NCBI GenBank assembly: GCA_029254745.1
Contig: JAQWWZ010000033.1
Location: forward strand, 1-64,000
Length of the DNA: 64,000 nt
Direction: 5' to 3'
DNA from: Opitutales bacterium
GTDB taxonomy: Bacteria; Verrucomicrobiota; Verrucomicrobiia; Opitutales; Seribacteraceae
Below are positions 2,253 to 18,399 of this stretch, one piece after another (position 1 is the stretch's first letter; each line of letters begins with the position of its first letter). The position numbers and the translations under genes were made by a program. The notes below the pieces were generated by a model that worked only from the letters and a program-made list of their open reading frames with translations, did no database searches and was not told the DNA's origin.

Positions 2253-2324
2253 ACTATTGTGCATCCTTGCCTCCTAGCATAGACAACTTCTCGTGCCCGT
2301 TTCAAATATCTATAACTCCCTTTG

Positions 2325-3065
2325 ATGAGGAACTTATTTCCAAGGTGGTCCAACACCATTCCTCTTAAGTTTATCATCGCCTTAGGCCTCCTAGGTGGGG
2401 CTGTTGTGGCAGCGATCACTTATTACGCCACCCCCAAGTATACCCGTGTCGGATATCAACCGACGCAACCTGTTCCTTACGATCACAGCTTCCACGCTGG
2501 TCAACTTGGTCTTGATTGCAGATATTGCCACCACGGTGTTGAGAAATCCTCTCATGCTAATATCCCTTCAGCCAATGTATGCATGTCATGCCACAAAAAT
2601 GTTAAAGCAGATTCTCCTTTATTAGAGGTTGTACGCCAGTCTTATTTTGGTGAAGACTCAAACCGGGACGGAAAGCTTTCAGAGGACGAGGATTTAAATG
2701 GTGACGGTTTACTCACTGAGGGGCCTGCTGTTCCATGGGTTCGGATTCACAAAGCACCAGATTATGTTTATTTTAACCATGCTATTCATGTCAACAGAGG
2801 CGTTAGTTGCGTTGAATGTCACGGTCGTATTGATGAGATGGAAGAGGTTTACCATGCGAAACATCTGAGTATGTCGTTTTGCCTCGAATGTCACCGGAAC
2901 CCCGAAAAGGCATTACGTCCTACTAGTGAAGTTACGAATTTAGCTTGGTCTGTTAAAGCAGACCCCGATGAAGATCCTGATTTAGCCCAAATTCATGCTG
3001 GGCTAGAACTCAAAAACAATTGGGGTGTAAATCCCCCACTTAGTTGTACTGGTTGCCATAGATGA
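2325..3065 (+). CDS. actA: Alternative complex III pentaheme cytochrome c, ActA
   Basis: ActA is the multiheme cytochrome subunit of alternative complex III, a membrane quinol:cytochrome c oxidoreductase that replaces the bc1 complex. The protein has an N-terminal membrane anchor (about residues 15-35) and exactly five CxxCH heme sites: CRYCH, CMSCH, CVECH, CLECH and CTGCH. Between the second and third hemes is an insertion with two EF-hand-like loops (DSNRDGKLSEDE and DLNGDGLL), which I do not expect in typical ActA. The ATG at 2325 is preferred over the TTG at 2322; neither has a clear Shine-Dalgarno sequence. The stop overlaps the actB start by 4 nt (ATGA), so translation is probably coupled. 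Confidence 0.93.
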   Translation: MRNLFPRWSNTIPLKFIIALGLLGGAVVAAITYYATPKYTRVGYQPTQPVPYDHSFHAGQLGLDCRYCHHGVEKSSHANIPSANVCMSCHKNVKADSPLLEVVRQSYFGEDSNRDGKLSEDEDLNGDGLLTEGPAVPWVRIHKAPDYVYFNHAIHVNRGVSCVECHGRIDEMEEVYHAKHLSMSFCLECHRNPEKALRPTSEVTNLAWSVKADPDEDPDLAQIHAGLELKNNWGVNPPLSCTGCHR

Positions 3066-6000
3066 TTAAAGAAAATGATAGTTTACCTCTCCTTTCAGGG
3101 AAACAGTATTGGAAGAGTCTCGATGAGCTAGCAGAAACCCCTGAGTTTCGCTCTTGGGTTGATAAAGAGTTTCCAGAAGGTGCGGAACTGTTAGACAATG
3201 TCCAGCGCCGAGGCTTCCTCAAAACAATGGCAGCGTCATTTGGCCTTGCAGGTCTTGGCATGTCAGGTTGTAGAAGACCCGAGCACACCATCCTTCCATA
3301 CGGCAAGAGTCCGGAAGAGTTAATCCCCGGAATCCCAAGCTTTTACGCCACATCCCGCCCAACTCCATTTGGTTTTTTGCCCTTAATTGCCGAAAGTCAT
3401 CAAGGTAGACCTACCAAAATCGAGGGTAACCCTTCATTCACAATTGCGGGTGGAAGTACAGATATATACTCGCAAGCTTCTGTGCTTGATTTGTACGATC
3501 CAGATCGTTCTAGAGGTTCATTTTCCCGCGAAATTTTACGCAAGGGTGATGAAAGCTCTGTTCGCTGGAAAAAGCTATCCTCAGCAAAGCTTGCCTCCGA
3601 AATATCAAATTGGTCTGATTCCGGTGGGCTTGCTATCATTACTGATTCTGCTGATTCTTTACTAAGGAATGAATTAATCGAGAATCTTGTTTCTACTGGA
3701 GTAAAGCATCTTGAATACGAAGCAATTGATCCTCACCTTCCTGAGAAAACTTTAGCATCATCACTTGGTGTAGCTGAAAACCTTAGACTTATACCACAAC
3801 TTCATAAAGCGAAAAAGGTGCTTTCCTTGGATTGTGATTTCCTGGGAAATAGGGAACCAAATTCAACTGTCAACTCCCGACAGTTTATGTCCGGCAGAAA
3901 AGTCCTCAGTGCTTCTGACGCGAGTAAAATGAATCGCCTTTACGCCGTTGAGTCTGACCTCACACTAACCGGTGGGGTCGCTGACCACAGGCTAAGGTTA
4001 CCATCCTCTAGAATGGAGGCATTCGCAGCGCTCTTTTACGCTGAAATTCTCAAATTACAAAAAAGCAAAGATTCTAATCTTATATCTCACCTGCTTAAAA
4101 TTGGCGGGGATTCCGAGTTTGATCGAAAATGGATTTCAGAATGCGCAAAAGACTTATTGTCAAAGTCGCAAAATTCCGTTGTTTTACCCGGCTTACATCA
4201 AAACAAAAACCTTCATTTGTTGGCTTTTGCTATCAACCAATCACTTGGTTCAATTGGTACTTGCGTAACTTACCTTCCTGTTTCCAAGAGATCATCTTAT
4301 TCCTTTGAAGATTTAGCTATTGATGTTAAGGAAAAGCGTATTAGTTCTATTCTCGTCCTCGGTGGCAATCCAGTTTACAACTGCCCAAATTCTGGATTAC
4401 AAGATCTTCTAAGTAAGGTTGAGAATTCCGCACATCTTGGCCAATCAATTGATGAAACTTCTTTGCATTGTAAGCTTCATATTGGTCAATCACACTTCCT
4501 TGAAAGTTGGGATCTAGGCTACTCTTGGGATCAATCGTGCATCACTCCAGTTCAACCTCTTATTGCACCTCTCTATGACACGATATCTGACATAGAACTC
4601 TTAGCGGCAGTAAATAAAAATACGAGCTCATCGCATGATCTAGTCGTTGCTGCCTACAACAATTTATCGAATACTGATGTTGCATTTGATGATTTTCTTC
4701 GCATTGGCATTCACAAAATCAAGCAGTCATTCAAAACTGTATTTCCCGATACATCTCCTTTTTTGCAAAAACTGAAGCCTGCAAACTTACAGTTGGATGA
4801 ATCCTCGCTTGAAGTGCTTCTTACCCCGGACTTTCACACATGGGATGGAAGGTTTTCTAACAATGGTTGGATGCTAGAGTGCCCTGACCCTATATCCAAA
4901 TTAACATGGGATAATGCTCTTCTTGTTAGCCCAGTTTTTGCCAAGCATTTAGAGTCCAAATATCCTGGACTCGGTCTTTTGCCAAAGCCAACCATGTTAA
5001 ACAAAAGCGGGCAGATAGCACCTGACGCAGCGGTCTTTGATGATGGCAAGCAAAAGGCCCCAATTGTCACCATCCAAGTAGGATCTGATCATAGCATTAC
5101 AGGACCAGTTTATGTACAACCTGGTCTTGCTGATTTTACGATTGTTGCTTCTCTCGGATTTGGGAGAAAACATACGGGGCGAATCGGTAATGATCTTGGC
5201 TACAATGCCTCATCCCTTACCCACTTTGGACAAAGCAGAATACTAACAAATGCATCCTGCGTACCCACCGGTGAGTTTAAGACTTTAGCAAATGTACAAG
5301 AGCATTGGTCCATGGAGGGTCGTGCGATTGTGAGAGAAGCGAATGCAGCAGAATACCAGTCTGATACTTCTTTTGCTCATCACATGGGTGCTGAATCACA
5401 TTCTCCCCCCATCTATGGCAAAGACCTAGATAAAGATCTCGTTTTTAAGTCCCAAACTACTCCTCGAGGAAACTCCTCTTATGAGCATCCAGATCATAAT
5501 CATGAGAAATCTGAGGAACATGGTTTACACCAATGGGGAATGTCAATCGACCTGAATCAATGCACAGGATGTAGTGCATGTGTCGTTGCATGTCAAAGTG
5601 AGAACAATATTCCCGTTGTTGGGAAAGATCAGGTTTTGCGCGGCAGGGAGATGCACTGGATACGGCTTGACCGTTACTTTAGTTCCACGCAAAGAGATGG
5701 GGCAGAGCTACCATCAGATGTCCAAGTTTCTTTTCAAGGTGTTGCCTGTATGCATTGTGAAACAGCCCCTTGCGAAACAGTCTGTCCAGTAAATGCTACT
5801 GTTCACGATGAAGAAGGTCTGAATGCCATGGCTTACAATCGCTGCGTAGGCACACGTTATTGTGCAAATAACTGTCCGTACAAAGTTCGTCGATTCAACT
5901 TTTTTGATTGGAACAAGAGAAAAACAGATGAACTCTACGAGGGTCCGTTAGGAGATGAAAATGAACCTGTCACAGCCATGGGTAAAAATCCTGATGTTAC

Positions 6001-6445
6001 CGTTAGGATGCGTGGTGTTATGGAGAAATGTACTTATTGCACTCAGCGCATACAGGAATCTAAAATCCGCACAAAAATCAAAGCACAGAGACAGAAAACT
6101 CTTAAAACCGGTAATGACGGTAAAGATCTTATCCTTGAGCGTGATGAATTAAAAGTCGCAGATGGTGGTATCAAAACTGCTTGCCAACAAGTTTGCCCGA
6201 CTGATGCAATTGTGTTTGGAGATATATCCGATCCTACTAGCGAAGTTAGTAAGCTAAAATCCAATCCACGAGATTATTCTGTATTAGGTTATTTAAATAC
6301 ACGCCCTCGGACAACATTTCTCGCAAAAGTCCGAAACCCAAATCCTCGTATGCCAGATCATGCCGTCTCACCTCACTCTGCCCGCGAGTATCACGATAAA
6401 GCGCACCCAAGTCACCACGATGAGGAGCACTCCAGTCCACATTAA
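3062..6445 (+). CDS. actB: Alternative complex III iron-sulfur/molybdopterin-like subunit, ActB
   Basis: This 1127-aa protein is the large periplasmic subunit of alternative complex III. A twin-arginine export signal is visible (QRRGFLKTM, residues 48-56), followed by a possible lipobox-like LGMSGC. The first 800 residues resemble a molybdopterin oxidoreductase fold, which in known ActB proteins carries no molybdenum cofactor. The C-terminal third is an NrfC-like ferredoxin module with cysteine clusters CTGCSAC (about 834), [14 protein letters not shown] (about 897), [12 protein letters not shown] (about 928), CTYC (about 990) and CQQVCP (about 1041). These fit three 4Fe-4S and one 3Fe-4S cluster as in the family. 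The C-terminus is His-rich. It relays electrons from the quinol site in ActC to the hemes. Confidence 0.94.
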
Positions 6446-6447
6446 TC

Positions 6448-7869
6448 ATGGCAACTCTTTCAAATCCAGAATCTACTGAAGATCGACCTGCTATCTTGGA
6501 CAAGGTTAACCCCGCTCCTTGGCATGAAGCCCCCCTTGTTTTAAACAATCGAAGTTTTAATTGGGTTACGGAGAAAATTTGCGGTATCGTTGAAAGTAAG
6601 ACTCCTACATGGTGGTGGTGGTGTTTTATAACTGCGATGATCATTGCTAGTTTCACAGGTATTGGACTTGTTTATCTAGTCTCCACAGGAGTTGGTGTTT
6701 GGGGTAACAACAACCCGGTAAATTGGGGTTGGGCAATTGTAAATTTTGTTTTCTGGATCGGTATTGGCCATGCAGGAACACTCATTTCTGCCATTCTTTG
6801 CTTACTCAAGCAAAAATGGAGAACTTCAATCAACCGAGGTTCCGAAGCTATGACAGTATTTGCAGTCATGTGTGCGGGTATTTTTCCTCTTTTCCATGTT
6901 GGGCGTGTATGGTTTGCTTGGTGGTTGTTTCCCTTACCAAACGCAAATGCCATTTGGCCTAATTTCAGGAGTCCGTTAGAGTGGGATGTTTTTGCTGTTT
7001 CTACTTATTTCACTGTATCGATACTTTTCTGGTATATGGGAATGATACCTGACTTAGCAGTTCTACGAGATCGAGCAAAAGAAACATGGAGGAAGTACTT
7101 TTACGGTTTTCTTGCAATGGGTTGGCGGAATGCGAACAACCATTGGCGAAATTTTGAGATGGCATACTTATTGTTAGCTGGTCTTTCTACTCCACTTGTT
7201 CTATCCGTACATACAATTGTATCCTTCGACTTTGCTGTGGCTAACCTTCCGGGTTGGCATACAACAATCTTCCCACCATATTTTGTTGCGGGGGCTATCT
7301 TTTCTGGATTTGGAATGGTGCTAACACTACTCCTTCCATTGAGGGCGGTGTTTGGACTTCATGACCTCATAACCCAGACGCACATAGATAATATGTGCAA
7401 AATAACCTTAGCGACTGGTAGTATAGTTGGCTATGCCTATTCCATGGAATTTTTCATTGCTTGGTACGGAGCCAATTCGTACGAAGGGTTTGCCTTTATA
7501 AACCGGGCATTCGGAAACTATTGGTGGTCCTATTGGATTATGGTTTCATGTAATGTTATTTGCCCACAACTCTTCTGGTTTAAGAAGATTCGTGAAAATA
7601 CTCCGCTTGTTTGGATAATCTCTATCTTTGTAAATGTGGGGATGTGGTTTGAACGTTTCGTCATAGCGAACACTACACTCTCCCGTGACTTTTTACCATC
7701 AAGCTGGGGGTATTACTCACCTACCGTTGTAGACATCTTCACTTTCTTCGGTACCTTCGGTTTTTTCTCTGTTCTATTCCTTTTATTCCTGCGTTTTCTT
7801 CCACTAATGCCCCTTGCTGAAGTTAAATCAGTAATGCCACAGGCTGACCCACATGGCGGAAAACATTAA
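6448..7869 (+). CDS. actC: Alternative complex III NrfD-like quinol-oxidizing membrane subunit, ActC
   Basis: A 473-aa polytopic membrane protein of the NrfD/PsrC type with about ten hydrophobic segments, rich in Trp and His (a WWWWC stretch near residue 52). In alternative complex III, ActC holds a quinol-binding site close to the ActB iron-sulfur clusters. The start lies 2 nt after the actB stop. Length and position (third gene of actABCDEF) are typical. The last codons overlap the longest reading of actD by 17 nt. Confidence 0.93.
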
Positions 7870-8434
7870 TAACCTTGCCATGACAACAAAGACGATGGAC
7901 ATCAAATACGGAATATCAGCTACATTTAGCTCTGCTAAAGATATTTTCGATGCTGCTGGAAAGATTCGTGAGGAGGGATACAAGAAGTGGGAGTGCTATA
8001 CACCAATTCCTGTACATGGATTAGATGACCAAATGGGAGTTGGTAGGTCAAAAGTACCTTGCTTTACTCTTTTGGGCGGTGTAACTGGTTTCCTTACAGG
8101 GATGCTACTAGTTTGGTTTATGAATGCCTATGATTATCCATTGATAGTTGGCGGAAAGCCCTACTTTAGCCCTATATACCCCTTTCCTGTTTTTTATGAG
8201 CTAACCATTCTTTTTGCTGCCTTTGGGACTTTGTTTGGTATGTTCTTTTTGAATCGTCTGCCTCAACACAATCATGCCGTCTTTGAACACCCCAATTTTG
8301 GGAAAACAGGGGATGACAAATTCATGGTAGTTGTTGAGATTGAAGATCCAAAATTCGACGATGAAGATACTCCGGTTTTTCTCAAAAGCTTAGGCGGAAA
8401 AAGTATTACAACCATCAAAGAATCGATTGTTTGA
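7853..8434 (+). CDS. actD: Alternative complex III membrane subunit ActD (DUF3341)
   Basis: A DUF3341-type protein of 193 aa with a cytoplasmic N-terminal domain and two central membrane helices separated by a short loop with [10 protein letters not shown], the pattern expected of ActD. The start is uncertain: ATG at 7853 overlaps actC by 17 nt, while ATG at 7880 begins just after the actC stop and gives [11 protein letters not shown]. The conserved part of the family begins near KYGISATF, so either start works. Confidence 0.9.
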
Positions 8435-8438
8435 TCAT

Positions 8439-9104
8439 ATGAGATATTTTATAGCAATCTACATCATACTTATCGTCCTTACAGTTTCCATACTTGGCTT
8501 TCGGGGTAGCACTTCAAAAAATACTCCTGTGGAAGTTTTTCCGGATATGGACAGGCAAGCTAAATTCAAGGCTCAAACTGTAAATCCTATTTTCTCGGAT
8601 GGTTCCGCGGACAGACTACCTGTTTTAGGTACTGCATCTAGAGGAAACGCTTATGACCTTGAAAATGTATTTTCTTCCAAACCAGTCCTAAAAAGTCATG
8701 CTTTCAAAACTGGAAAAGCACTTTCCGGTGATTGGGTTAAAAATACCTCCTCAGTAGTTAAAGTAGACTTACCACTAATCCGGTTAGGGAAAGAAAAATA
8801 CGACATCCATTGCTCTGTTTGTCACGGTGAATACGGTAACGGCTTAGGAGTTTTATCAAAATTTGGTTTGGCTCCTCGTAATTTATCTGACCCTTCCCAG
8901 ATGGGCACTTATCTCGAGTCATCTGGTGAATGGACTGATGGACAAATTTACCATGCTATCTCTATGGGTTCAGCTTCAGGGATTATGCTTGGCTTAAGCG
9001 ACAAGCTCACACCCCAAGAAAGATGGGCTATCGTATTGTATGTCAGAACCTTACAGAACTTCGTAGGACAAGCGACCACTTCCAGCAAGAAAATGGGATC
9101 ATGA
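8439..9104 (+). CDS. actE: Alternative complex III monoheme cytochrome c subunit, ActE
   Basis: A 221-aa protein with an N-terminal hydrophobic anchor and one heme motif (CSVCHGEYGNG). A methionine near the C-terminal end of the cytochrome domain (SGIMLGLSDKLTPQERWAI region) is the probable sixth ligand. This matches the single-heme cytochrome c subunit ActE, a likely exit point for electrons. The ATG at 8439 follows the actD stop by 4 nt and is preferred over a TTG at 8427 that would overlap actD. The stop overlaps the actF start (ATGA). Confidence 0.9.
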   Translation: MRYFIAIYIILIVLTVSILGFRGSTSKNTPVEVFPDMDRQAKFKAQTVNPIFSDGSADRLPVLGTASRGNAYDLENVFSSKPVLKSHAFKTGKALSGDWVKNTSSVVKVDLPLIRLGKEKYDIHCSVCHGEYGNGLGVLSKFGLAPRNLSDPSQMGTYLESSGEWTDGQIYHAISMGSASGIMLGLSDKLTPQERWAIVLYVRTLQNFVGQATTSSKKMGS

Positions 9105-10414
9105 GTACTCATACAACAGATACAACTCCTCAAAGCTTCGGAATTTCAACCAAACTTTTAGTAGGTGCTATTTTAGGTATAGGAGGTGGGCTGATCGGAT
9201 TAGCTACAGGTTTCCAAACCGGAGATAATGCACCATTCCTGGGTTGGTTATGGGGATGCTCTTTTTGGCTGAGTATTGCCATTGGGATGCTCATGCTCAT
9301 TATGATCTTTCGAATTTTTAATTCTAAATGGAGCCCTGTAGTTCGCCGACAGTTGGAACACGGTATAGCTGCGTTTCCATGGATTGGAGTTTGTTTTATC
9401 CCGCTTCTGTTAGTTGTTTGGTTTGGTGGAGATAATTCTGGTATTTTATGGTCGTGGGTTAATTTAGACAGCCCTACCATGGAAGCCAACGCAATAATTA
9501 CGGTCCAAGATGATGTGCTGCACCAAAAGAAAGCTGGATATTTAAATGTTTATTTTTTCAGTATCAGACTTGTTTGTTACTTCGCCGTTTTTTGCGGCCT
9601 TAGCTATTGGCTCAGAAAAGTTTCTTTTGCACAAGATAAGGACGGTAACCCTAACTGGACTAGGTTAGGATCTAAAATATCAGCAGCGGGTATTCCTGCT
9701 GCAGCACTAGCATTAACATTCGGTGCTTTTGATTTATTCATGAGCCTTGAATACCAATGGTTTTCTACAATGTATGGCGTCTGGTTTTTTGCATCCGGCA
9801 TGAGAGCAGCTCTAGCTGTGACAATCATTGCTTGTTTATACCTCAAGACAAAAAGTGGTTCAGGTGGCCTCAAAGGCTTGTATCAACAGGCTCACCAATA
9901 CGATCTTGCATGCCTTTCGTTAGCCTTCACTGTTTTCTGGGCTTACATCAGTTTCTCTCAATACTTTCTCATATACAGTGCTAATATCCCAGAGGAGACA
10001 TTTTGGTACAGCATACGCGAGATAAATCCCAACACAGGTGAAATCTCTGGATGGTTTTGGGTAAGCATGGGCCTCATTTTCGGTCATTTCTTTTTCCCTT
10101 TTCTCTACTTGCTCTTTTATCGTAACAAAATCGTTGGTGGAAAATTACTTTTCATTGTTCTTTGGATCCTGGTATTTCATGCCTTGGATCTGTATTGGAA
10201 TATTATACCGGGTCGTGAAATTGTTCCTGGGGCGTTTGTTGGTTACGAAGCAAGAGGAGTGTGGGGGCTTCACTTACCGTGGGGATTAGTAACTTTGTTT
10301 GGAGTTGGTTGTTTAAGCGCATGGGCCGTACTTAAAAGTTTCACATCCGATGTTGCTGAAGTCATTCCGGTCAGAGATCCAAGAATTTTAGAATCGATTC
10401 ATCATCATGAGTAA
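9101..10414 (+). CDS. actF: Alternative complex III NrfD-like membrane subunit, ActF
   Basis: A 437-aa polytopic membrane protein of the same NrfD-like type as ActC, with about ten hydrophobic segments. In the known complex ActF is the second large membrane subunit and may contain a proton pathway. I start it at ATG 9101 (MSTHTTD) because this gives an ATGA overlap with the actE stop; a longer reading from 9023 would run 80 nt into actE and adds a non-conserved leader. It ends in an ATGAGTAA overlap with the next small gene. Confidence 0.92.
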   Translation: MSTHTTDTTPQSFGISTKLLVGAILGIGGGLIGLATGFQTGDNAPFLGWLWGCSFWLSIAIGMLMLIMIFRIFNSKWSPVVRRQLEHGIAAFPWIGVCFIPLLLVVWFGGDNSGILWSWVNLDSPTMEANAIITVQDDVLHQKKAGYLNVYFFSIRLVCYFAVFCGLSYWLRKVSFAQDKDGNPNWTRLGSKISAAGIPAAALALTFGAFDLFMSLEYQWFSTMYGVWFFASGMRAALAVTIIACLYLKTKSGSGGLKGLYQQAHQYDLACLSLAFTVFWAYISFSQYFLIYSANIPEETFWYSIREINPNTGEISGWFWVSMGLIFGHFFFPFLYLLFYRNKIVGGKLLFIVLWILVFHALDLYWNIIPGREIVPGAFVGYEARGVWGLHLPWGLVTLFGVGCLSAWAVLKSFTSDVAEVIPVRDPRILESIHHHE

Positions 10415-10706
10415 GCCAACAGAACAGAGAGCGGATGGTTGCAGCATCTTCTTTACATTGATAATTGTCGTATTATTATCGAGTGCATTTATTTGGATAC
10501 ATTCTATCTTGCAGCCAAATGAACCTGGGGATGTTTCTCTGATGACCGACAAAGATAGGGCTCAAAAGATCGAGTCTCACCAAAAAGAGAACCAAATCTT
10601 CATTTCAAGGATAAACCAATATCACTCTGATCAAAATTCTTCCTTGAATGTTATTATGTCAAATGTCGTATCGAAGTACAACACCTTGGAGAAAAACAAC
10701 AATTAA
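10407..10706 (+). CDS. Small single-span membrane protein between actF and the CcoN-like gene
   Basis: A 99-aa protein with one transmembrane segment (about residues 13-33) and a hydrophilic, Gln/Asn/Ser-rich tail of about 60 residues predicted to lie outside the membrane. The start overlaps the actF stop by 8 nt and the gene ends 8 nt before the CcoN-like gene, so it is tightly embedded in the operon. No heme or metal motif is visible. I do not recognise the family. Position suggests an accessory subunit or assembly factor linking alternative complex III to the oxidase-like genes. Confidence 0.75.
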   Translation: MSKPTEQRADGCSIFFTLIIVVLLSSAFIWIHSILQPNEPGDVSLMTDKDRAQKIESHQKENQIFISRINQYHSDQNSSLNVIMSNVVSKYNTLEKNNN

Positions 10707-10714
10707 TTTGTATT

Positions 10715-12127
10715 GTGAAGCAAAACTCAGAACAGATAATAGATAAGTCACTCAAGCTTACTGTGTGCTTTTTCGTAGCTTCTGCAGGCCTTTGGTTATT
10801 AGCCGCTGCCTTGCTTGCATACATCTCAGCTGCCAAATTGACAGATCCATTTTTTCTCTCGTCATTTGAATTCCTCAGTTACGGAAAAGTTAAGATAGCT
10901 CAGGCAAATGCTTTTGTTTACGGCTGGGGTGGAAACTCGATTTTCGCAGTTACCCTATGGGTGGTAGCTCGCTTATCCCAAGCTGAAGCCAGAGGGAAAG
11001 TTATTGTTTTATTTGCTGGGTTCATTTGGAACTTGGCAATTACGTTCGGATTACTTGGTATTCTGGACGGTCACATGACGCCACATGAAATGTTAGAGAT
11101 GCCCGCTGAGATTTGGCCAGCCTTGTTTATTTCATATTCTATCATCGCCTTTTTTATTATTGTTACACACCGTTCTCGCAGGAACAGTAATACTATTGCC
11201 CCTCAGTGGTTTCTGCTTTCATCATTGCTGTGGTTTCCTATGCTTTTTTTAATAGCTTGGAATGGGTTAGAAATTAATCCAGCACGTGGCACGGTCCAAA
11301 GCGTTTTATCAATGTGGTTTGGACAAAGCCTTATCTGGCTTTGGCTGACACCCGTTGCTCTAGGAGCGGCTTATTACATCATACCTGCGATTTTAGGCAG
11401 AGCTATTGACAAGTATTACCTAGCGGTTTTTGGCTTTTGGTGTATTGCGTTACTGGCTCCTTGGTCCGTCGTACATCACTTGGAAGGTGGTCCCGTACCA
11501 ATGTGGATTCCTGCTATTGGAACGGTCATGAGTATTGCTATGATTTTTCCCATTGCAGTAGCGTCCACTAACTTCCATTCCACTGCTTTTTTGGATATCA
11601 GCAAGGTTTGGAACAGTCTCCCACTTCGCTTCGTAATATTTGGCACACTTTCCTACACTGCATCTAGTTACATTGGCGTTATCTTCTCACTTCCTGCCGT
11701 GGCTAAAATTACTCAATTTTCCATCATCAATGATTTTCATTTTAACCAACGAGTTTACGGTTTTTTCAGTATGATTATTTTCGGCATGGTCTACCACATC
11801 TTACCCAAAATTACCGGCAATGAAATTGCTAAAGGAGCAAAATCATTTCACTTTTGGACCTCAGCATTTGGGGTACTAATACTTTTACTCGCCTACCTTA
11901 TTGGCGGATTGACCCACGGAGTGTTAGCTCAACAACCTTCCTTAAATTGGGCATCATCCGTGATATCTTCCATTTTGCCATATTTCCAAATTACAGAATT
12001 AGCATTTGTTGTGCTTGGCTTCTCACAATTGGTTTTCGTTGTTAATGTTTGGAAAGCAATAATTCCAAATCCTTTTGCTTTTTTTACTAATGACGATGAT
12101 GCGACAAACTCGGAGGTATCCGCGTGA
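10715..12127 (+). CDS. CcoN-like heme-copper oxidase subunit I lacking several metal ligands
   Basis: The 470-aa, roughly 12-helix protein aligns by eye with cbb3-type cytochrome oxidase subunit I (NAFVYGWGGN; VVHHLEGGPVPMWIP; QRVYGFFSMIIFGMVYHILP). Key ligands differ. The helix-2 low-spin heme His is Gln63 (IAQANAFVYGW), the first CuB His is Gln204 (MWFGQSL), and the second low-spin heme His is Asn344 (DFHFNQRVYGFF). The paired CuB histidines (His254-His255) and the high-spin heme His (His342) remain. On this reading it cannot bind low-spin heme b normally and has an incomplete CuB site, so oxygen reduction is doubtful. The start is GTG at 10715. It overlaps the next cytochrome gene by 4 nt. 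It may be a structural or regulatory subunit, or a divergent enzyme. Confidence 0.85.
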   Translation: MKQNSEQIIDKSLKLTVCFFVASAGLWLLAAALLAYISAAKLTDPFFLSSFEFLSYGKVKIAQANAFVYGWGGNSIFAVTLWVVARLSQAEARGKVIVLFAGFIWNLAITFGLLGILDGHMTPHEMLEMPAEIWPALFISYSIIAFFIIVTHRSRRNSNTIAPQWFLLSSLLWFPMLFLIAWNGLEINPARGTVQSVLSMWFGQSLIWLWLTPVALGAAYYIIPAILGRAIDKYYLAVFGFWCIALLAPWSVVHHLEGGPVPMWIPAIGTVMSIAMIFPIAVASTNFHSTAFLDISKVWNSLPLRFVIFGTLSYTASSYIGVIFSLPAVAKITQFSIINDFHFNQRVYGFFSMIIFGMVYHILPKITGNEIAKGAKSFHFWTSAFGVLILLLAYLIGGLTHGVLAQQPSLNWASSVISSILPYFQITELAFVVLGFSQLVFVVNVWKAIIPNPFAFFTNDDDATNSEVSA

Positions 12128-13257
12128 ATAATCTTCTCAAATTTTCTCTCGGTATCTTTCTCAGTCTTGGCGTTGCCTGGCTTGCCTTTGTTGTAGGTGC
12201 ACGTGCTCAGTTTGGAGATTTAACTCCTTCCTCCGAAACTCTTGATGAGTTTGGAAATATCCCATCGGATTCTGATTTGTATCCCCTACCTGTATCAGGA
12301 TTAGCTGAGCAGGGCTCAAAAGAATACTTAGCCTTAGGCTGCATGACCTGCCATACCCAACAAGTTCGTATGGTTGAGGCAGGGTTTGATGTCGAGCGTG
12401 GGTGGGGGCAGCGTCCGTCGGTAGCGAGAGATTATATTCATCAGAAACATGTTTTGCTAGGTAACACTCGAATTGGCCCCGACTTGGCTAATGTGGGACT
12501 GAGGCAGCCTGATTTGGAATGGTTACACAAGCACCTGTTCGAACCCCAGTCTGTTGTGCCTCAATCATTGTGCCCACCAAGTCCATTTTTATATGAGCAA
12601 GTAGACCAAGCTTCTGGTAAAACTTTCACCGTCGTTAATGATAAAAATGAATCTCGTTTTATTGTACCAAGTATTCGTGCAAAGCGTTTGGTTTCTTACC
12701 TCAAATCATTGCATCAAAACTACGAACTCCCGGAAATGGCTTTTGTGGTCAATGAGGAAGAGAATATTGAAAAGAATGCAGAACTGTTAAATTTACCTGC
12801 CTCTGATGTAAACCAATCTTCTTTACCTTCATGGTTAGAAAAACAAATTGCATCAGGAAAAGAAATTTATATGAAAGCTGCTCCAGGCGGCGGACTATGC
12901 TTTACATGTCACCAACCGAGTGGTGAAGGGCTTGCTGGACAGTTCCCTCCATTGGCTGGATCTGACTGGGTTCTTGGTGATAAGGAGCGGTTAATCAAAA
13001 TTTCAATATATGGGTTGATGGGGGAAATCGAGGTTAATGGAGAAAAGTATAACAATGTGATGGCACCTCCTGGAATACCACCTGGATCTTTGACCAACCA
13101 ACAAATTGCAGATGTATTGACATACATAAGAAATGACTGGGGTAATTCCGCTTCTGCTGTCACTTCACTTGAAGTTTCTACAGTTCGTAATAAAATTAAA
13201 GGTAGAGCACCCATGCAAATGTGGACAGCAGCCGAATTAAGTGCAGTTGACGAGTAA
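12124..13257 (+). CDS. Diheme cytochrome c, CcoO-CcoP-like fusion
   Basis: A 377-aa protein with an N-terminal membrane anchor (about residues 5-27), then a CcoO-type domain (heme site CMTCHTQQVR at 73; NTRIGPDLANVG at 114-125) and a C-terminal class-I cytochrome c domain (CFTCHQ at 259, Met313 as likely ligand). In CcoO proteins the heme Met lies in a motif like SxMPxYxxL; here it reads SLCPPSPFL, so Cys150 stands where Met is expected. The protein probably partners the CcoN-like subunit upstream (4-nt overlap) and accepts electrons from alternative complex III. Confidence 0.86.
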   Translation: MNNLLKFSLGIFLSLGVAWLAFVVGARAQFGDLTPSSETLDEFGNIPSDSDLYPLPVSGLAEQGSKEYLALGCMTCHTQQVRMVEAGFDVERGWGQRPSVARDYIHQKHVLLGNTRIGPDLANVGLRQPDLEWLHKHLFEPQSVVPQSLCPPSPFLYEQVDQASGKTFTVVNDKNESRFIVPSIRAKRLVSYLKSLHQNYELPEMAFVVNEEENIEKNAELLNLPASDVNQSSLPSWLEKQIASGKEIYMKAAPGGGLCFTCHQPSGEGLAGQFPPLAGSDWVLGDKERLIKISIYGLMGEIEVNGEKYNNVMAPPGIPPGSLTNQQIADVLTYIRNDWGNSASAVTSLEVSTVRNKIKGRAPMQMWTAAELSAVDE

Positions 13258-13261
13258 TTCA

Positions 13262-13930
13262 ATGACAAAAGACACCACCAACAACCACCAACCAAGTTCG
13301 ATGTCCGACCATGATATGGTTGAAATACATTCGAAGCTAAATATTGAAAAACACCCTCCCACAAAAGGATTTTTGGTAGCTCCCCTGGTTTTTGTTTTCG
13401 TTTTTGGGTGCTTGATTTTTGTCTGTTCTATTCAGCTTGCACACAGCACTAATCAATTTCAATTACACCCGCCAACTGATATAGTTGTCCTTACTGAAGA
13501 AGAAAAAGAAACGGCTAGGTTAGACAGAAAAGTAGCTTCTGGAAAAAAAGTTTTTGGATTACGTTGCGCGTCCTGCCACCAAGCAAATGGGCTTGGAATT
13601 CAAGGTCAGTACCCCCCTCTGGCCGGATCAAAATGGGTTACCTCAGATCCGGCACTCATATCTAAGATCATCCTCAAGGGTCTCAAAGGCGAGATTATAG
13701 TTAAAGGGGAAGTATATGGAGCATCCGCAGCTGTGAATATGGCTGCTGTTCCAATCACTGATCGTGAGATTGCCAATGTAACCACCTATGTAAGAACTGC
13801 GTGGGGAAATGCTGCTTCCGAAATAACTGAAAATGAAGTTTCCTTATTTAGAGCTGAATCTGAAGATCAAGTTGAGCAGTGGACAGGGACACAATTGGTA
13901 GATATGTTTCCTTCCGTTTTCTCAAATTGA
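13262..13930 (+). CDS. Membrane-anchored monoheme cytochrome c
   Basis: A 222-aa protein with a 35-residue N-terminal cytoplasmic stretch, one transmembrane segment (about 36-60) and a class-I cytochrome c domain with heme site CASCH (102-106) and probable Met ligand at 160 (AAVNMAAVP). The domain closely resembles the C-terminal cytochrome of the preceding gene (both have QxPPLAGSxWV, GxIxVxGxxY and Y(I/V)R..WGN..S), suggesting duplication. ATG 13262 lies just past the upstream stop; a GTG at 13241 would overlap it. Last gene of the respiratory operon. Confidence 0.87.
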   Translation: MTKDTTNNHQPSSMSDHDMVEIHSKLNIEKHPPTKGFLVAPLVFVFVFGCLIFVCSIQLAHSTNQFQLHPPTDIVVLTEEEKETARLDRKVASGKKVFGLRCASCHQANGLGIQGQYPPLAGSKWVTSDPALISKIILKGLKGEIIVKGEVYGASAAVNMAAVPITDREIANVTTYVRTAWGNAASEITENEVSLFRAESEDQVEQWTGTQLVDMFPSVFSN

Positions 13931-13982: not shown

Positions 13983-15311
13983 ATGAGACTAGTTCTTCTT
14001 ACCTTACTTTTTTACTGGTTTCATCATCTAACATTTGCAGGTGTTAGTATTAACCCTGTTGAGAGACCTGAGTTTCACTTTAAAGAACTCCAGCAAATTC
14101 TCGCACAACTTGAAGACAGGGCACTTCTTTCCCTTGAGGAAAAGAAAAGAATTGATGAAGCTTTGGCGAATACGTTGCTCGCTAAGTCTGCTGAAGGAAC
14201 CAAGATAAACCTTAACCTTCAAGGGCAATCAGTTTACGAGGATCGTCCTAATCAGTCCTATTATGGTAGAGAAAGATTCTTTGGCTCTCTTACACTTAGA
14301 CGGCCGTTATTTCATTGGGGGGCATTGAAGGCCCGAACAGAAATTGCATTTTTAGCACAGTCCACCGTTCAAAATAACTATAATTATCTACTTTCAGAAC
14401 TACAATTAAATGCACGGGGTTCATATTTAGATTTGATCGTCCTCAATAATCAAGTTGAACTAGGAAAAGCTAATCTCAAGGCAACCAATGATAATTTTAG
14501 AAAAATTGAGAAAAGAAATAAACTTGGACTTACCAGCGATCTAATTGTCAAAGATGCAAATATTCAGCTTCTGCGGCAAAGAATTATATTAGAAGACTTA
14601 AACCGATCTCTTGTTACAGCAAAAAATAATTTTGCCCAACTCTCCGGATGGAACGATCCATTAAAGTTTCAAGAAATAAATAATTCTTTTAAGTCCCTTC
14701 AACTTAATCATGATTTTGGAAAATCAATTCCAGTACTCATAACTAGTCATTCATCAAGATCTGCAAAACAAATCGAAGTTGAAATTAGTGCTGAAAAGAA
14801 ACGCGTAGTAATAGCTGAAAGTGGTCTTAAACCAAAAGTTAATTTGGTCGGTACCTTCTACCAGGATCAAGTTCCCTTGGCTAATAATGAGAATAGCTTT
14901 GTGCGAAATAATTATTTATTCGGGCTCGAAGTTAATTGGGCTTTATGGGATTCTTCAAAAAGTAAAGCAGAGAAATATAAAGCCTTAGCGAATAAAAGAA
15001 GATTAGAAATTAATCTGGAAAGGGAAAGTAAATCTTTTCGCCTTGAGCTGGAAAATATGAGAACTCAGTTAAATTCGATTGCCAAACAAGTTGATATGGC
15101 AAGAGCTCTCGTTATCTTAGCAGAAAAAAAGTTGGCCATTAGCAAAGTAGAATTCGAATCTGACCGAATTACACCCTCTCAATTCATGAATGCTAAAATA
15201 TCTTTGGATCGATCCAAAATTGATAGACTACAATCAATATGCGAATATATCAAAATCAGGAATCGCTACGAAATTCTGCTCAATCCGGACTATGAAAAGC
15301 TCAAAAAATAA
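13983..15311 (+). CDS. TolC-like outer membrane efflux protein
   Basis: A 442-aa protein with a short signal peptide (about residues 1-19) and the two-fold repeated, coiled-coil-rich pattern of outer membrane efflux proteins (OEP family): long helices at about 120-215 and 310-430 around strands such as GLKPKVNLVGTFYQDQ and NYLFGLEVNWALWDSSKS. It would form the outer membrane channel of the tripartite exporter encoded by the next three genes. Its end overlaps the membrane fusion gene by 17 nt. Substrate not inferable. Confidence 0.82.
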   Translation: MRLVLLTLLFYWFHHLTFAGVSINPVERPEFHFKELQQILAQLEDRALLSLEEKKRIDEALANTLLAKSAEGTKINLNLQGQSVYEDRPNQSYYGRERFFGSLTLRRPLFHWGALKARTEIAFLAQSTVQNNYNYLLSELQLNARGSYLDLIVLNNQVELGKANLKATNDNFRKIEKRNKLGLTSDLIVKDANIQLLRQRIILEDLNRSLVTAKNNFAQLSGWNDPLKFQEINNSFKSLQLNHDFGKSIPVLITSHSSRSAKQIEVEISAEKKRVVIAESGLKPKVNLVGTFYQDQVPLANNENSFVRNNYLFGLEVNWALWDSSKSKAEKYKALANKRRLEINLERESKSFRLELENMRTQLNSIAKQVDMARALVILAEKKLAISKVEFESDRITPSQFMNAKISLDRSKIDRLQSICEYIKIRNRYEILLNPDYEKLKK

Positions 15312-16437
15312 ACTCTTTTCCTTTCAAGTCATATTTTCTTTGGGAATCATCTCGATTCTATTGTTTTTGTTCTTTGCTTATCTTGGAGTACAAGAAAAAG
15401 TGCTTGTTGTTCGAGCTAAAGTTGGTGATATCAAAGATTCAATAAATGGTAATGTTGTTGTTCTTGCTGATCAGAGTTTTGATTTGCGCTCTGAGGCAAA
15501 TGCTCGCGCTGTCTTTTCAATACTTAGCCCCCATGGTAAACCAGTGGCAGTCGAAGCAAATCAAACATTGTTTATATTAGATAGCAGCGATTTAAACCGT
15601 AGTTTAAATAGTGTATTGCTGAGAAAGGATTACTATGTGAAGCGCCTAGAGGCAGGTTCTCAATTATCTTCTCAGATCAAGATTGAGGAAAAAGACCTCG
15701 AAGCCGTACGTGCGATTTCTCAAATTGATGCCATTGCCAGTCTCGATCTTGAAAAAAAAGAAAGTCATGTCGAAAGACTTCGAATTTCTTTAGCCCATGA
15801 AATTATATCCCAAGAAGAAACTTTGAATTCTCTCGATATGGAAATTGAGCGCTTAAAAAAGGAAATAAAAAAAAGTACCATTAAAAGTCCAATTTCAGGG
15901 ATCTTAGTCTCATCCACTGTAAAACCTGAGGATTTTGTTTTCAGTAGTCAAATTGTGGGAAAAGTAGTGTCACATTCTCGGTTGATTAAAGTTTCACTCA
16001 GTGAGGAAGATTTTTCGGACTTAAAGGAAGGGCATCTTGCAGGTGTTACTCTATTTGCATCAAAAAATAAAGTTTATGAAGGTATTGTCGATCGCATTGC
16101 TGCAACAATTGAGCCAAGTACTGGCCGCAGGAATGCATTTCTTAAACTTGATTCGACCTCTAGTCTCCCCATTGGTGGATCCGGTCGTGCTGAAATTATT
16201 AAACGAAAAGTTTCTCAGGCACTAATCATTCCAAGGAAAGCCCTCCTTGGTGACTCTGTTTTATGTGTTAGGAATAATAAAGTGTGCATTACCCCAGTGA
16301 AGGTGGGTGCAACGAGTTTAGAAGCCATCCAAATCCTCGAGGGTTTAGCGGAAGGTGATCTTGTAATCGCTGAAACGCCTCATCTCTTTTATGATGAACA
16401 GAAGGTGAATCCATCTATCATCAATTGGCTTAATTAA
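15295..16437 (+). CDS. Membrane fusion protein (HlyD/MacA type)
   Basis: A 380-aa periplasmic adaptor with an N-terminal membrane anchor (about 9-28), a long coiled coil (about 120-195) flanked by lipoyl-type half-domains (TIKSPISGILVSSTVKPED, with GILV and the preceding IKSPI), a beta-barrel domain and a C-terminal proximal domain (LLGDSVLCVRNNKVCITPVKVG). It bridges the ABC permease and the TolC-like channel. ATG 15295 is chosen because longer readings start deep in the upstream gene and lack the anchor at the N-terminus. Confidence 0.82.
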   Translation, partial: KSSKNKLFSFQVIFSLGIISILLFLFFAYLGVQEKVLVVRAKVGDIKDSINGNVVVLADQSFDLRSEANARAVFSILSPHGKPVAVEANQTLFILDSSDLNRSLNSVLLRKDYYVKRLEAGSQLSSQIKIEEKDLEAVRAISQIDAIASLDLEKKESHVERLRISLAHEIISQEETLNSLDMEIERLKKEIKKSTIKSPISGILVSSTVKPEDFVFSSQIVGKVVSHSRLIKVSLSEEDFSDLKEGHLAGVTLFASKNKVYEGIVDRIAATIEPSTGRRNAFLKLDSTSSLPIGGSGRAEIIKRKVSQALIIPRKALLGDSVLCVRNNKVCITPVKVGATSLEAIQILEGLAEGDLVIAETPHLFYDEQKVNPSIINWLN

Positions 16438-16445
16438 TCAATTCT

Positions 16446-17696
16446 GTGAATTTGCTCACCCTCGAAATCGCTTGCCGTTATGTAATCGGAAGAAAGCGAT
16501 CTATGGCAATGAGCTTGATCGGTATAGTTTTGGGAATTGCATTTTTTGTAATTACACAAGCTCAGACCTCAGGTTTTGAAGCCTTTTTTATCCGAACTAT
16601 TCTTGGTACAAATGGTGCGATTAAGATTTCAGATCGCTTTCAAGATATGGACGGAACCGTTAGCAAAGTCTCTAAAGACGGAAATTTCCAATTTTTCTTC
16701 CGCTCTCGAGAGGAGGCACAGTACACAGAGGGTATTCGATTCCCTGATGAGATCAGGAATGCTTTAGCAAGCTACCAAGACATCACTGGGATTTCTGAAG
16801 TGCTTGAAGGCACTGCGGAGTTGGCTGGTTCGAGTCGTTCATTTCCTGTCATTTTCCAAGGCATTAGATATCATGACCATAGTCAGGTTTCTGAGCTTAA
16901 CAATCAGTTGATTGCAGGTGCTATTGTTGATTTTGCAAAAGACCCGATGTCGATACTTGTAGGAAATAGAATTGCCGAAAGACTCATGCTCAAAATTGGT
17001 GACCGTATAGTTATGAAAGGTGGAACAGGAACTCTACAATTAAGAATTGCTGGAGTTTTTGAAACTGGAGTCAGTCAGATTGATAAAAAAAGGATTTACA
17101 TACATCTTTCAACAGCTAGACAATTTAAAGGCGAAAGGTTTGCGGGCTCTTTCTTTCAACTAGCACTCGACAATCCAGATAAGGCACCTGAACTAGCAGC
17201 TCAAATACAATACCATCTAGGTCACCGTTCAGTAAGTTGGCAGGAGCGGGAAAAAGTTTGGCTTGATGTTTTTAAAGCTTTGCGAATTTCTTCGGCCATA
17301 ACAGTTTCAAGCATTTTACTATTATCCGGATTAGGAATATTTAATGTTTTTGCCATCATGGTTATTGAAAAAACAAGAGATATTGCAATTTTAAGGTCTA
17401 TGGGATTTTCCCGCTTTGATGCTTCAGCAGTATTTCTCTGGCAAGGGCTTATCATCTTGTTTTTAGGCGTTTTACTGGGCTCATTTTTTGGTTTCTTAAG
17501 CACTTATTTTATTTCCGAAATCCCACTAAGAATACGAGGAATCTTTTCAACTGACAGCTTTGTTGTGAACTGGGATGTTTTTCATTATCTATGGGCCATC
17601 AGCTTAGCATCAGTCTTTGTTGTGATTGCTACTTGGGTACCAGCTCGAAGAGCCGGTAAAATTCAACCAGCCAAAATTATCAGAGAAACACTTTAG
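16446..17696 (+). CDS. ABC transporter permease, FtsX/MacB/LolC family
   Basis: A 416-aa permease with the MacB-type layout: one N-terminal helix (about 18-36), a periplasmic core domain of about 240 residues, then three C-terminal helices (about 283-305, 328-355, 378-400) including the typical IMVIEKTRDIAILRSMGFS coupling segment and a final ARRAGKIQPAKIIRE. The start codon is GTG at 16446. It works with the ATPase downstream and the adaptor upstream. Such systems export lipids, lipoproteins, peptides or macrolides; nothing here selects among them. Confidence 0.85.
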   Translation: MNLLTLEIACRYVIGRKRSMAMSLIGIVLGIAFFVITQAQTSGFEAFFIRTILGTNGAIKISDRFQDMDGTVSKVSKDGNFQFFFRSREEAQYTEGIRFPDEIRNALASYQDITGISEVLEGTAELAGSSRSFPVIFQGIRYHDHSQVSELNNQLIAGAIVDFAKDPMSILVGNRIAERLMLKIGDRIVMKGGTGTLQLRIAGVFETGVSQIDKKRIYIHLSTARQFKGERFAGSFFQLALDNPDKAPELAAQIQYHLGHRSVSWQEREKVWLDVFKALRISSAITVSSILLLSGLGIFNVFAIMVIEKTRDIAILRSMGFSRFDASAVFLWQGLIILFLGVLLGSFFGFLSTYFISEIPLRIRGIFSTDSFVVNWDVFHYLWAISLASVFVVIATWVPARRAGKIQPAKIIRETL

Positions 17697-17718
17697 CCAC
17701 GAAGTATGTAAGTTACCC

Positions 17719-18399
17719 ATGAAACATCCCCCATTACTTCAAGCAAAAAACCTAAAGTATTCTTTTAATGAAACTGGAACATCTACACATGTTTTGAATG
17801 ATGTTTCTATCGAACTATTTCCGGGAGAAATCACATCTATTGTGGGTCCATCAGGATGCGGGAAAAGCACCCTACTTTATTTACTTGGTCTCTTGGACCG
17901 TCCTGATAGTGGTGAGATTTCGTTAAACGAGAAGGATGTATTAAAGTGTGATGATAAAAAAAGAACGATTTTAAGGAATCACAAACTAGGATTCGTTTTC
18001 CAATTTCACTTTTTAATCAAAGAGTTGTCAGTTTTGGATAATGTTGCCTTGCCCATGCGCAAGGCAGGCAAATCAAAAACTGCTTCCTATGAAAAGGCTA
18101 GAGATGTTTTAGGCAAACTTGGCTTACTTGATAAATCCAATCGTTTTCCCCATAAATTGTCCGGAGGAGAACAGCAAAGAGTTGCGATTGCCCGGGCCAT
18201 TATCAATTCACCGTCGCTTATTCTTGCAGATGAGCCTACTGGAAATTTGGATACTGAAAATTCGAAAAAAGTTCATTCCGTTTTATCCAAACTTGCAATA
18301 GAAGAAAATATCTCTGTCTTGATCGTAACCCACAATCTTGAACTTGCTCAAAGTTGCGATCGAGTGATCAAGATGAGAGATGGGCGTATTATAGAATAG
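17719..18399 (+). CDS. ABC transporter ATP-binding protein, LolD/MacB type
   Basis: A 226-aa nucleotide-binding protein with Walker [10 protein letters not shown] (43-51), a Q-loop, signature LSGGEQQR, Walker [13 protein letters not shown] and an H-loop (VTHN). It belongs to the LolD/MacB/FtsE branch of ABC ATPases. ATG 17719 lies 22 nt after the permease stop; a longer reading from 17626 would run into the permease gene. The 3' end overlaps the convergent DnaJ-like gene by 11 nt. Confidence 0.9.

Follow-up and report, generated by a model that had tools for sequence, protein, structure and literature searches.

Few residues in bioenergetics are as invariant as the ligands of heme-copper oxidases, and the locus described here raises the question of what an oxidase subunit contributes to a cell once half of them have been replaced. 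The window, by which we mean the whole stretch of 64,000 nucleotides that was analysed, comes from an Opitutales assembly of 2.45 Mb (96.5 % complete). It encodes a CcoN-like subunit I within an operon that begins with the genes of alternative complex III (ACIII), as follows.

2322..3065, + strand: actA, pentaheme cytochrome of ACIII, with five CxxCH motifs
3062..6445, + strand: actB, molybdoenzyme-like/iron-sulfur subunit of ACIII, assigned from its sequence and co-conserved in relatives
6448..7869, + strand: actC, NrfD-like quinol subunit of ACIII (Pfam NrfD)
7853..8434, + strand: actD of ACIII, assigned from gene order and conservation
8427..9104, + strand: actE, monoheme cytochrome c of ACIII, with one CxxCH motif
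9101..10414, + strand: actF, second NrfD-like subunit of ACIII, assigned from gene order and conservation (start set at 9101; 9023 in the list of open reading frames)
10407..10706, + strand: small protein of 99 aa between actF and ccoN, its position conserved in many relatives
10715..12127, + strand: ccoN-like gene; its product of 470 aa is a C-type (cbb3-like) heme-copper oxidase subunit I poor in ligands
12124..13257, + strand: ccoO-like subunit with a fused C-terminal cytochrome c domain (Pfam FixO and Cytochrom_C) and two CxxCH motifs (12340-12354 and 12898-12912)
13241..13930, + strand: ccoP-like monoheme cytochrome c (Pfam Cytochrom_C), with CASCH at 13565-13579

Identity of the CcoN-like subunit and its operon

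The ccoN frame is open across 10715-12127 from a GTG start codon. Its product matched Pfam COX1 with 132.5 bits, and the closest curated family was TIGR00780 ccoN with 113 bits; this is below the equivalog cut-off of 583 bits, so the protein does not qualify as an authentic cbb3 subunit. Profile and pairwise alignments matched it to the solved CcoN structures 9g6b, 8smr and 3mk7 with E values from 9e-31 to 2e-28. An AlphaFold model, computed from the window CcoN and 32 relatives, had a mean pLDDT of 90.4 and superposed on the CcoN chain 3mk7_D with a VIA-align Z of 50.6 and an rmsd of 2.0 over 444 residues. The next-best fold match was NorB (Z 44.1), and identity as a nitric oxide reductase was ruled out on this difference together with the E values (7e-72 for CcoN vs 2e-4 for NorB). 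By descent, the window CcoN is a C-type (cbb3-like) heme-copper oxidase subunit I, as its fold, its sequence and its ccoO and ccoP neighbours indicate. It resembles the cbb3 CcoN of 3mk7 in fold, helix motifs and neighbouring genes, but shares only 22 % identity with it and has lost the low-spin heme ligands, the helix-6 CuB His and the active-site Tyr.

The order actABCDEF, small open reading frame, ccoN, ccoO, ccoP forms a conserved operon across Verrucomicrobiia, with ccoN always placed after actABCDEF, which bears out the original prediction in its appeal to operon position. The order is identical whether or not the accompanying CcoN has kept its ligands. The 99-aa protein had no Pfam or NCBIfam match; most relatives have an open reading frame of similar size in the same place between actF and ccoN. 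Directly downstream of the respiratory operon (13983-18399) are TolC-like, membrane-fusion, FtsX-like and LolD-like genes. Genes of these kinds are also adjacent in other loci (L049, L052 and L054) and lie upstream of the act genes in two (L066 and L067).

Loss of ligands in the window clade and across the class

The residues of the window CcoN at the ligand positions and at the position of the active-site Tyr are listed below.

10901..10903, + strand: Gln63 (CAG), at the helix-2 low-spin-heme His position
11324..11326, + strand: Gln204 (CAA), at the helix-6 CuB His position
11456..11458, + strand: Ala248, at the helix-7 active-site Tyr position
11474..11479, + strand: His254-His255 (CATCAC), the helix-7 CuB His pair, kept
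11738..11746, + strand: His342-Phe-Asn344, in which the high-spin-heme His is kept (His342, CAT, 11738-11740) and the low-spin-heme His is replaced by Asn (Asn344, AAC, 11744-11746)

The reading frame and every codon named in the original prediction were confirmed. Its central claim, that Gln63, Gln204 and Asn344 occupy three invariant His sites, was upheld by both the profile and the pairwise CcoN alignments, none of which restored a His at any of the three. The alignment is not gap-free overall, as had been claimed, but the four motifs in helices 2, 6, 7 and 10 are unambiguous. Thus, three of the six His that bind low-spin heme (two), high-spin heme (one) and CuB (three) are replaced. In heme-copper oxidases the active-site Tyr is cross-linked to a CuB His, and in the C family it is located on helix 7. 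This Tyr was found in all 90 relatives with a complete ligand set and in five true cbb3 enzymes; the window CcoN has Ala248 in its place, corresponding to Y251 of Pseudomonas stutzeri CcoN (numbering by our own count), a further loss that had gone unnoticed. Alignment to solved CcoN therefore shows the loss of two ligands of low-spin heme, one of CuB, and the Tyr expected of a functional heme-copper oxygen reductase. These losses support the original inference that the subunit cannot act as a normal oxygen reductase.

To describe conservation, 23 loci were compared from genomes of the source genus and two neighbouring genera. The Gln/Gln/Asn replacements are fixed in all 23 and so did not arise by chance. 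The full set at the seven positions, Gln/Gln/Ala/His/His/His/Asn, occurs exactly in 22 loci of about 70-100 % identity, and one further locus has Asn254; His255 and His342 are accordingly present in 23/23 members and His254 in 22/23. Invariant columns make up 49 % of all CcoN columns in this clade. Where computable, dN/dS for ccoN was 0.025-0.047, similar to or lower than that of ccoO and actF, and no stop codons were found in ccoN of the clade. The open frame and a dN/dS below 0.05 rule out a pseudogene, in agreement with the original argument against decay. In a sister genus within this family (loci L027 and L029), all six His have been lost and the whole operon is retained.

A profile built from 18 members was used to search more widely. 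Matches were obtained in 227 of 286 genomes of the class, a count that includes true cbb3 enzymes, and in GTDB genomes at 80 named loci, nearly all from Verrucomicrobiota with a few from Planctomycetota. The two kinds could be told apart by score, family members reaching at least 395 bits and true cbb3 CcoN at most 230 bits. Among 170 distinct members that were aligned, 90 have all six His and the Tyr (intact), and 80 are without some or all of them (disarmed). The disarmed members show dozens of residue patterns, with replacements by Phe, Ser, Ala, Gly, Arg and others according to lineage. The window case, first treated as a single oddity, is therefore one of many recurrent losses across a class. 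Two Opitutaceae loci (L110 and L140) are intermediates that have kept the heme ligands and lost the helix-7 Tyr and CuB His; on sequence grounds they are candidates for heme-bearing, copper-poor versions. One Planctomycetia genome (G348) has a second, disarmed paralogue (L232, GSYLNQW) beside an intact copy, indicating that duplication and disarming are not confined to Verrucomicrobiota.

The number of losses depended on the gene used for the tree. The CcoN tree alone required only 4-5 state changes, a low count attributed to fast-evolving disarmed copies being drawn together, as long-branch warnings suggested. Losses were therefore counted on a tree of ActC, a slow-evolving neighbour in the same operon that provides an independent view (locus L185, a wrong open reading frame, was left out). 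This tree gave 24 state changes, of which at least 10 are forced by well-supported branches, the counts themselves carrying no direction. The ActC data rejected the hypothesis that the disarmed state arose only once (p-AU 3.9e-35); the CcoN data did not reject a single clade of disarmed and intact Opitutaceae-type members, the grouping seen on the ActC tree (p-AU 0.64). The intact state is taken as ancestral because the outgroups are intact (23 of 24 Planctomycetia relatives and all true cbb3 enzymes) and because regaining seven exact residues is implausible. At 70-75 % ActC identity, disarmed CcoN sequences share 36 % identity among themselves, compared with 60 % for intact ones. These comparisons indicate that the pocket is released in disarmed CcoN and that the gene is still under selection.

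Companion oxidases, CcoO cytochromes and a proposed role of disarmed CcoN

The source genome has exactly one other heme-copper subunit I, a complete A-type on contig C52. It belongs to a caa3 operon that also contains ctaB, sco and ctaG and whose subunit II carries a fused cytochrome c domain (gene names assigned from reading the translations). A search of the source genome for bd oxidase found none. An A-type subunit I (at least about 400 bits) was found in all 55 disarmed genomes examined and was missing from 5 of 25 intact genomes (Fisher p 0.002, a statistic that ignores kinship). A-type genes are located directly downstream at 20/56 disarmed loci and 6/70 intact loci. Elsewhere in the genus, one genome (G017, contig C1:4575-5840) has an A-type oxidase gene interrupted by in-frame stops, which may be due to faulty assembly. 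For the intact form, one genome of 1.7 Mb (G045, 99 % complete) has intact CcoN as its sole heme-copper oxidase and lacks bd oxidase; the intact CcoN of the family is therefore probably a working oxidase.

The neighbouring cytochromes are retained. A FixO-like CcoO gene bearing CxxCH follows ccoN at 164 of 170 loci (78 disarmed, 86 intact); the gene finder required CxxCH, and the six loci that gave none include some cut contigs. One residue of the window CcoO departs from the cbb3 pattern.

12571..12573, + strand: Cys150 of CcoO, at the cbb3 axial-Met position in the alignment to 3mk7_B (PESKMPSYPWL in cbb3, PQSLCPPSPFL in the window)

This change from axial Met to Cys was found in 36/78 disarmed loci vs 0/86 intact loci; examples include L182, L183, L186, L188-L192, L197, L202 and L207. 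A His/Cys heme is possible in the Cys-bearing CcoO; such hemes are usually of low potential. The axial residue changed six times on the ActC tree. A sign test of the Met to Cys change against CcoN loss was not significant, the independent pairs being too few, and coupling between the two is suggestive.

We consider it reasonably probable that disarmed CcoN is a non-catalytic platform for CcoO and CcoP between ACIII and a separate caa3 oxidase, and that intact subunits were converted to this role repeatedly. On this proposal, the ancestral state would be a C-type oxidase module built into the ACIII operon of Verrucomicrobiia. The presence of a separate A-type (caa3) oxidase would make the catalytic site of CcoN dispensable, leading to repeated disarming. 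The disarmed protein would stop reducing oxygen and would lack heme b, and it would remain needed in the membrane to hold the CcoO and CcoP cytochromes against ACIII in a putative complex. Electrons would then pass from menaquinol to ActB, to ActA/ActE, to CcoO/CcoP and on to caa3. The fact that fits a simple wire to caa3 worst is Cys150 of CcoO, unless the fused domain carries the current; the fused second cytochrome domain of the clade CcoO may indeed bypass the Cys-ligated heme. A further point against the platform proposal is that the caa3 genes of the source genome are on a different contig from the act-cco operon.

Of the three roles first suggested for the window subunit, structural partner of ACIII fits best, since the remaining His have also been lost in the sister genus and in numerous further lineages that kept the gene; retention of ccoN would then be independent of any bound heme. 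The sensor role was unsupported, and the one-heme protein is retained here as a rival. It would keep high-spin heme b on His342 and perhaps a metal on His254/255, and would bind O2, NO or CO, acting either as a sensor or as a minor reductase. The near-complete conservation of these three His in the window clade agrees with this, but is weak evidence of a bound heme where half of all columns are invariant, and L027 and L029, in the same family, have kept the gene and the operon without any of the six ligands. The protein also has neither the low-spin heme ligands nor the Tyr for catalysis, and the operon contains no sensor domain or regulator; we regard a one-heme protein as unlikely. A purely structural part, one that ACIII or the cytochrome subunits need for assembly or stability and that takes no share in electron transport to an oxidase, would account for the retention of gene and synteny after the ligands had gone, and the axial Cys in nearly half of the disarmed CcoO sequences is in keeping with it. 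It is rather improbable, however, in view of the CxxCH motifs kept in CcoO and CcoP and the extra fused cytochrome c domain, which point to continued redox work.

Two further explanations bear on the selection acting on ccoN. Strong purifying selection would be consistent with a catalyst of changed chemistry in which Gln, Asn or other residues hold the cofactors. The substituting residues differ among lineages, however, and the low identity among disarmed sequences at matched ActC divergence is that of a relaxed active site, making such a catalyst very unlikely. Random loss with stop codons in homologs, the sign of a decaying pseudogene, had been named in the original prediction as a refutation. 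This is borne out in part, as ligand loss does vary by lineage, but stop codons do not generally accompany the losses; ccoN has one in-frame stop in a small number of relatives from other parts of the class. Decay or an assembly artefact is also at odds with the open frames and low dN/dS of the window clade, with the overlap of the ccoN stop and the ccoO start at 12124-12127, and with conservation across more than 20 genomes that were assembled separately, and has a negligible probability.

The platform proposal can be extended to a class of pseudo-oxidases, in which CcoNOP modules would have been disarmed independently at least ten times and would now bridge ACIII and caa3 in supercomplexes by means of their cytochromes, the CcoO heme having been rewired through the change from axial Met to Cys in several lineages and through additional fused cytochrome domains. 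We hold this extension tentatively, as plausible and somewhat more doubtful than not.

Relation to described respiratory systems

C-type oxidase genes adjoining ACIII genes have been reported in verrucomicrobial methanotrophs and Opitutaceae (PMC8498564, PMC6688271), and the intact members are very likely this published oxidase. The available portions of both papers describe it as an active cbb3-type enzyme and make no mention of disarmed versions. An 'unknown group' of C-type oxidases has been set apart from authentic cbb3 enzymes, which have a mandatory Glu (Muntyan et al. 2015, as cited in PMC5492636). Compared through that citing description, the intact members may belong to this group. 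The Glu is absent from all 90 of them (Gln, Ile and Phe being the common residues), which fits this assignment, and the window CcoN has Ile at the position, residue 320.

In supercomplexes, ACIII passes electrons directly to caa3 or aa3 oxidases through bound cytochromes; in that of Rhodothermus, electrons from menaquinol follow an iron-sulfur and heme wire in ACIII and pass from ActE to caa3 (PMC5928083). The ACIII-caa3/aa3 systems of Rhodothermus marinus and Flavobacterium johnsoniae resemble the window in that an oxidase module comes after the ACIII operon. They differ in that their oxidases are catalytically complete A-type enzymes, with no ligand-less subunit in between. The link between ACIII and C-type oxidases is thus already known, and our literature searches, which covered papers available without subscription, did not turn up any account of the disarmed form or of other ligand-less heme-copper oxidase subunits.

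If these genes are annotated automatically as cbb3 oxidase, many Verrucomicrobiota will be assigned a high-affinity oxidase that they lack. Within one class and one operon, the state of CcoN ranges from intact through half-broken to wholly broken, and ACIII and the cytochromes are kept. This amounts to a natural experiment on the non-catalytic roles of an oxidase subunit, and on whether supercomplex architecture alone merits its retention.
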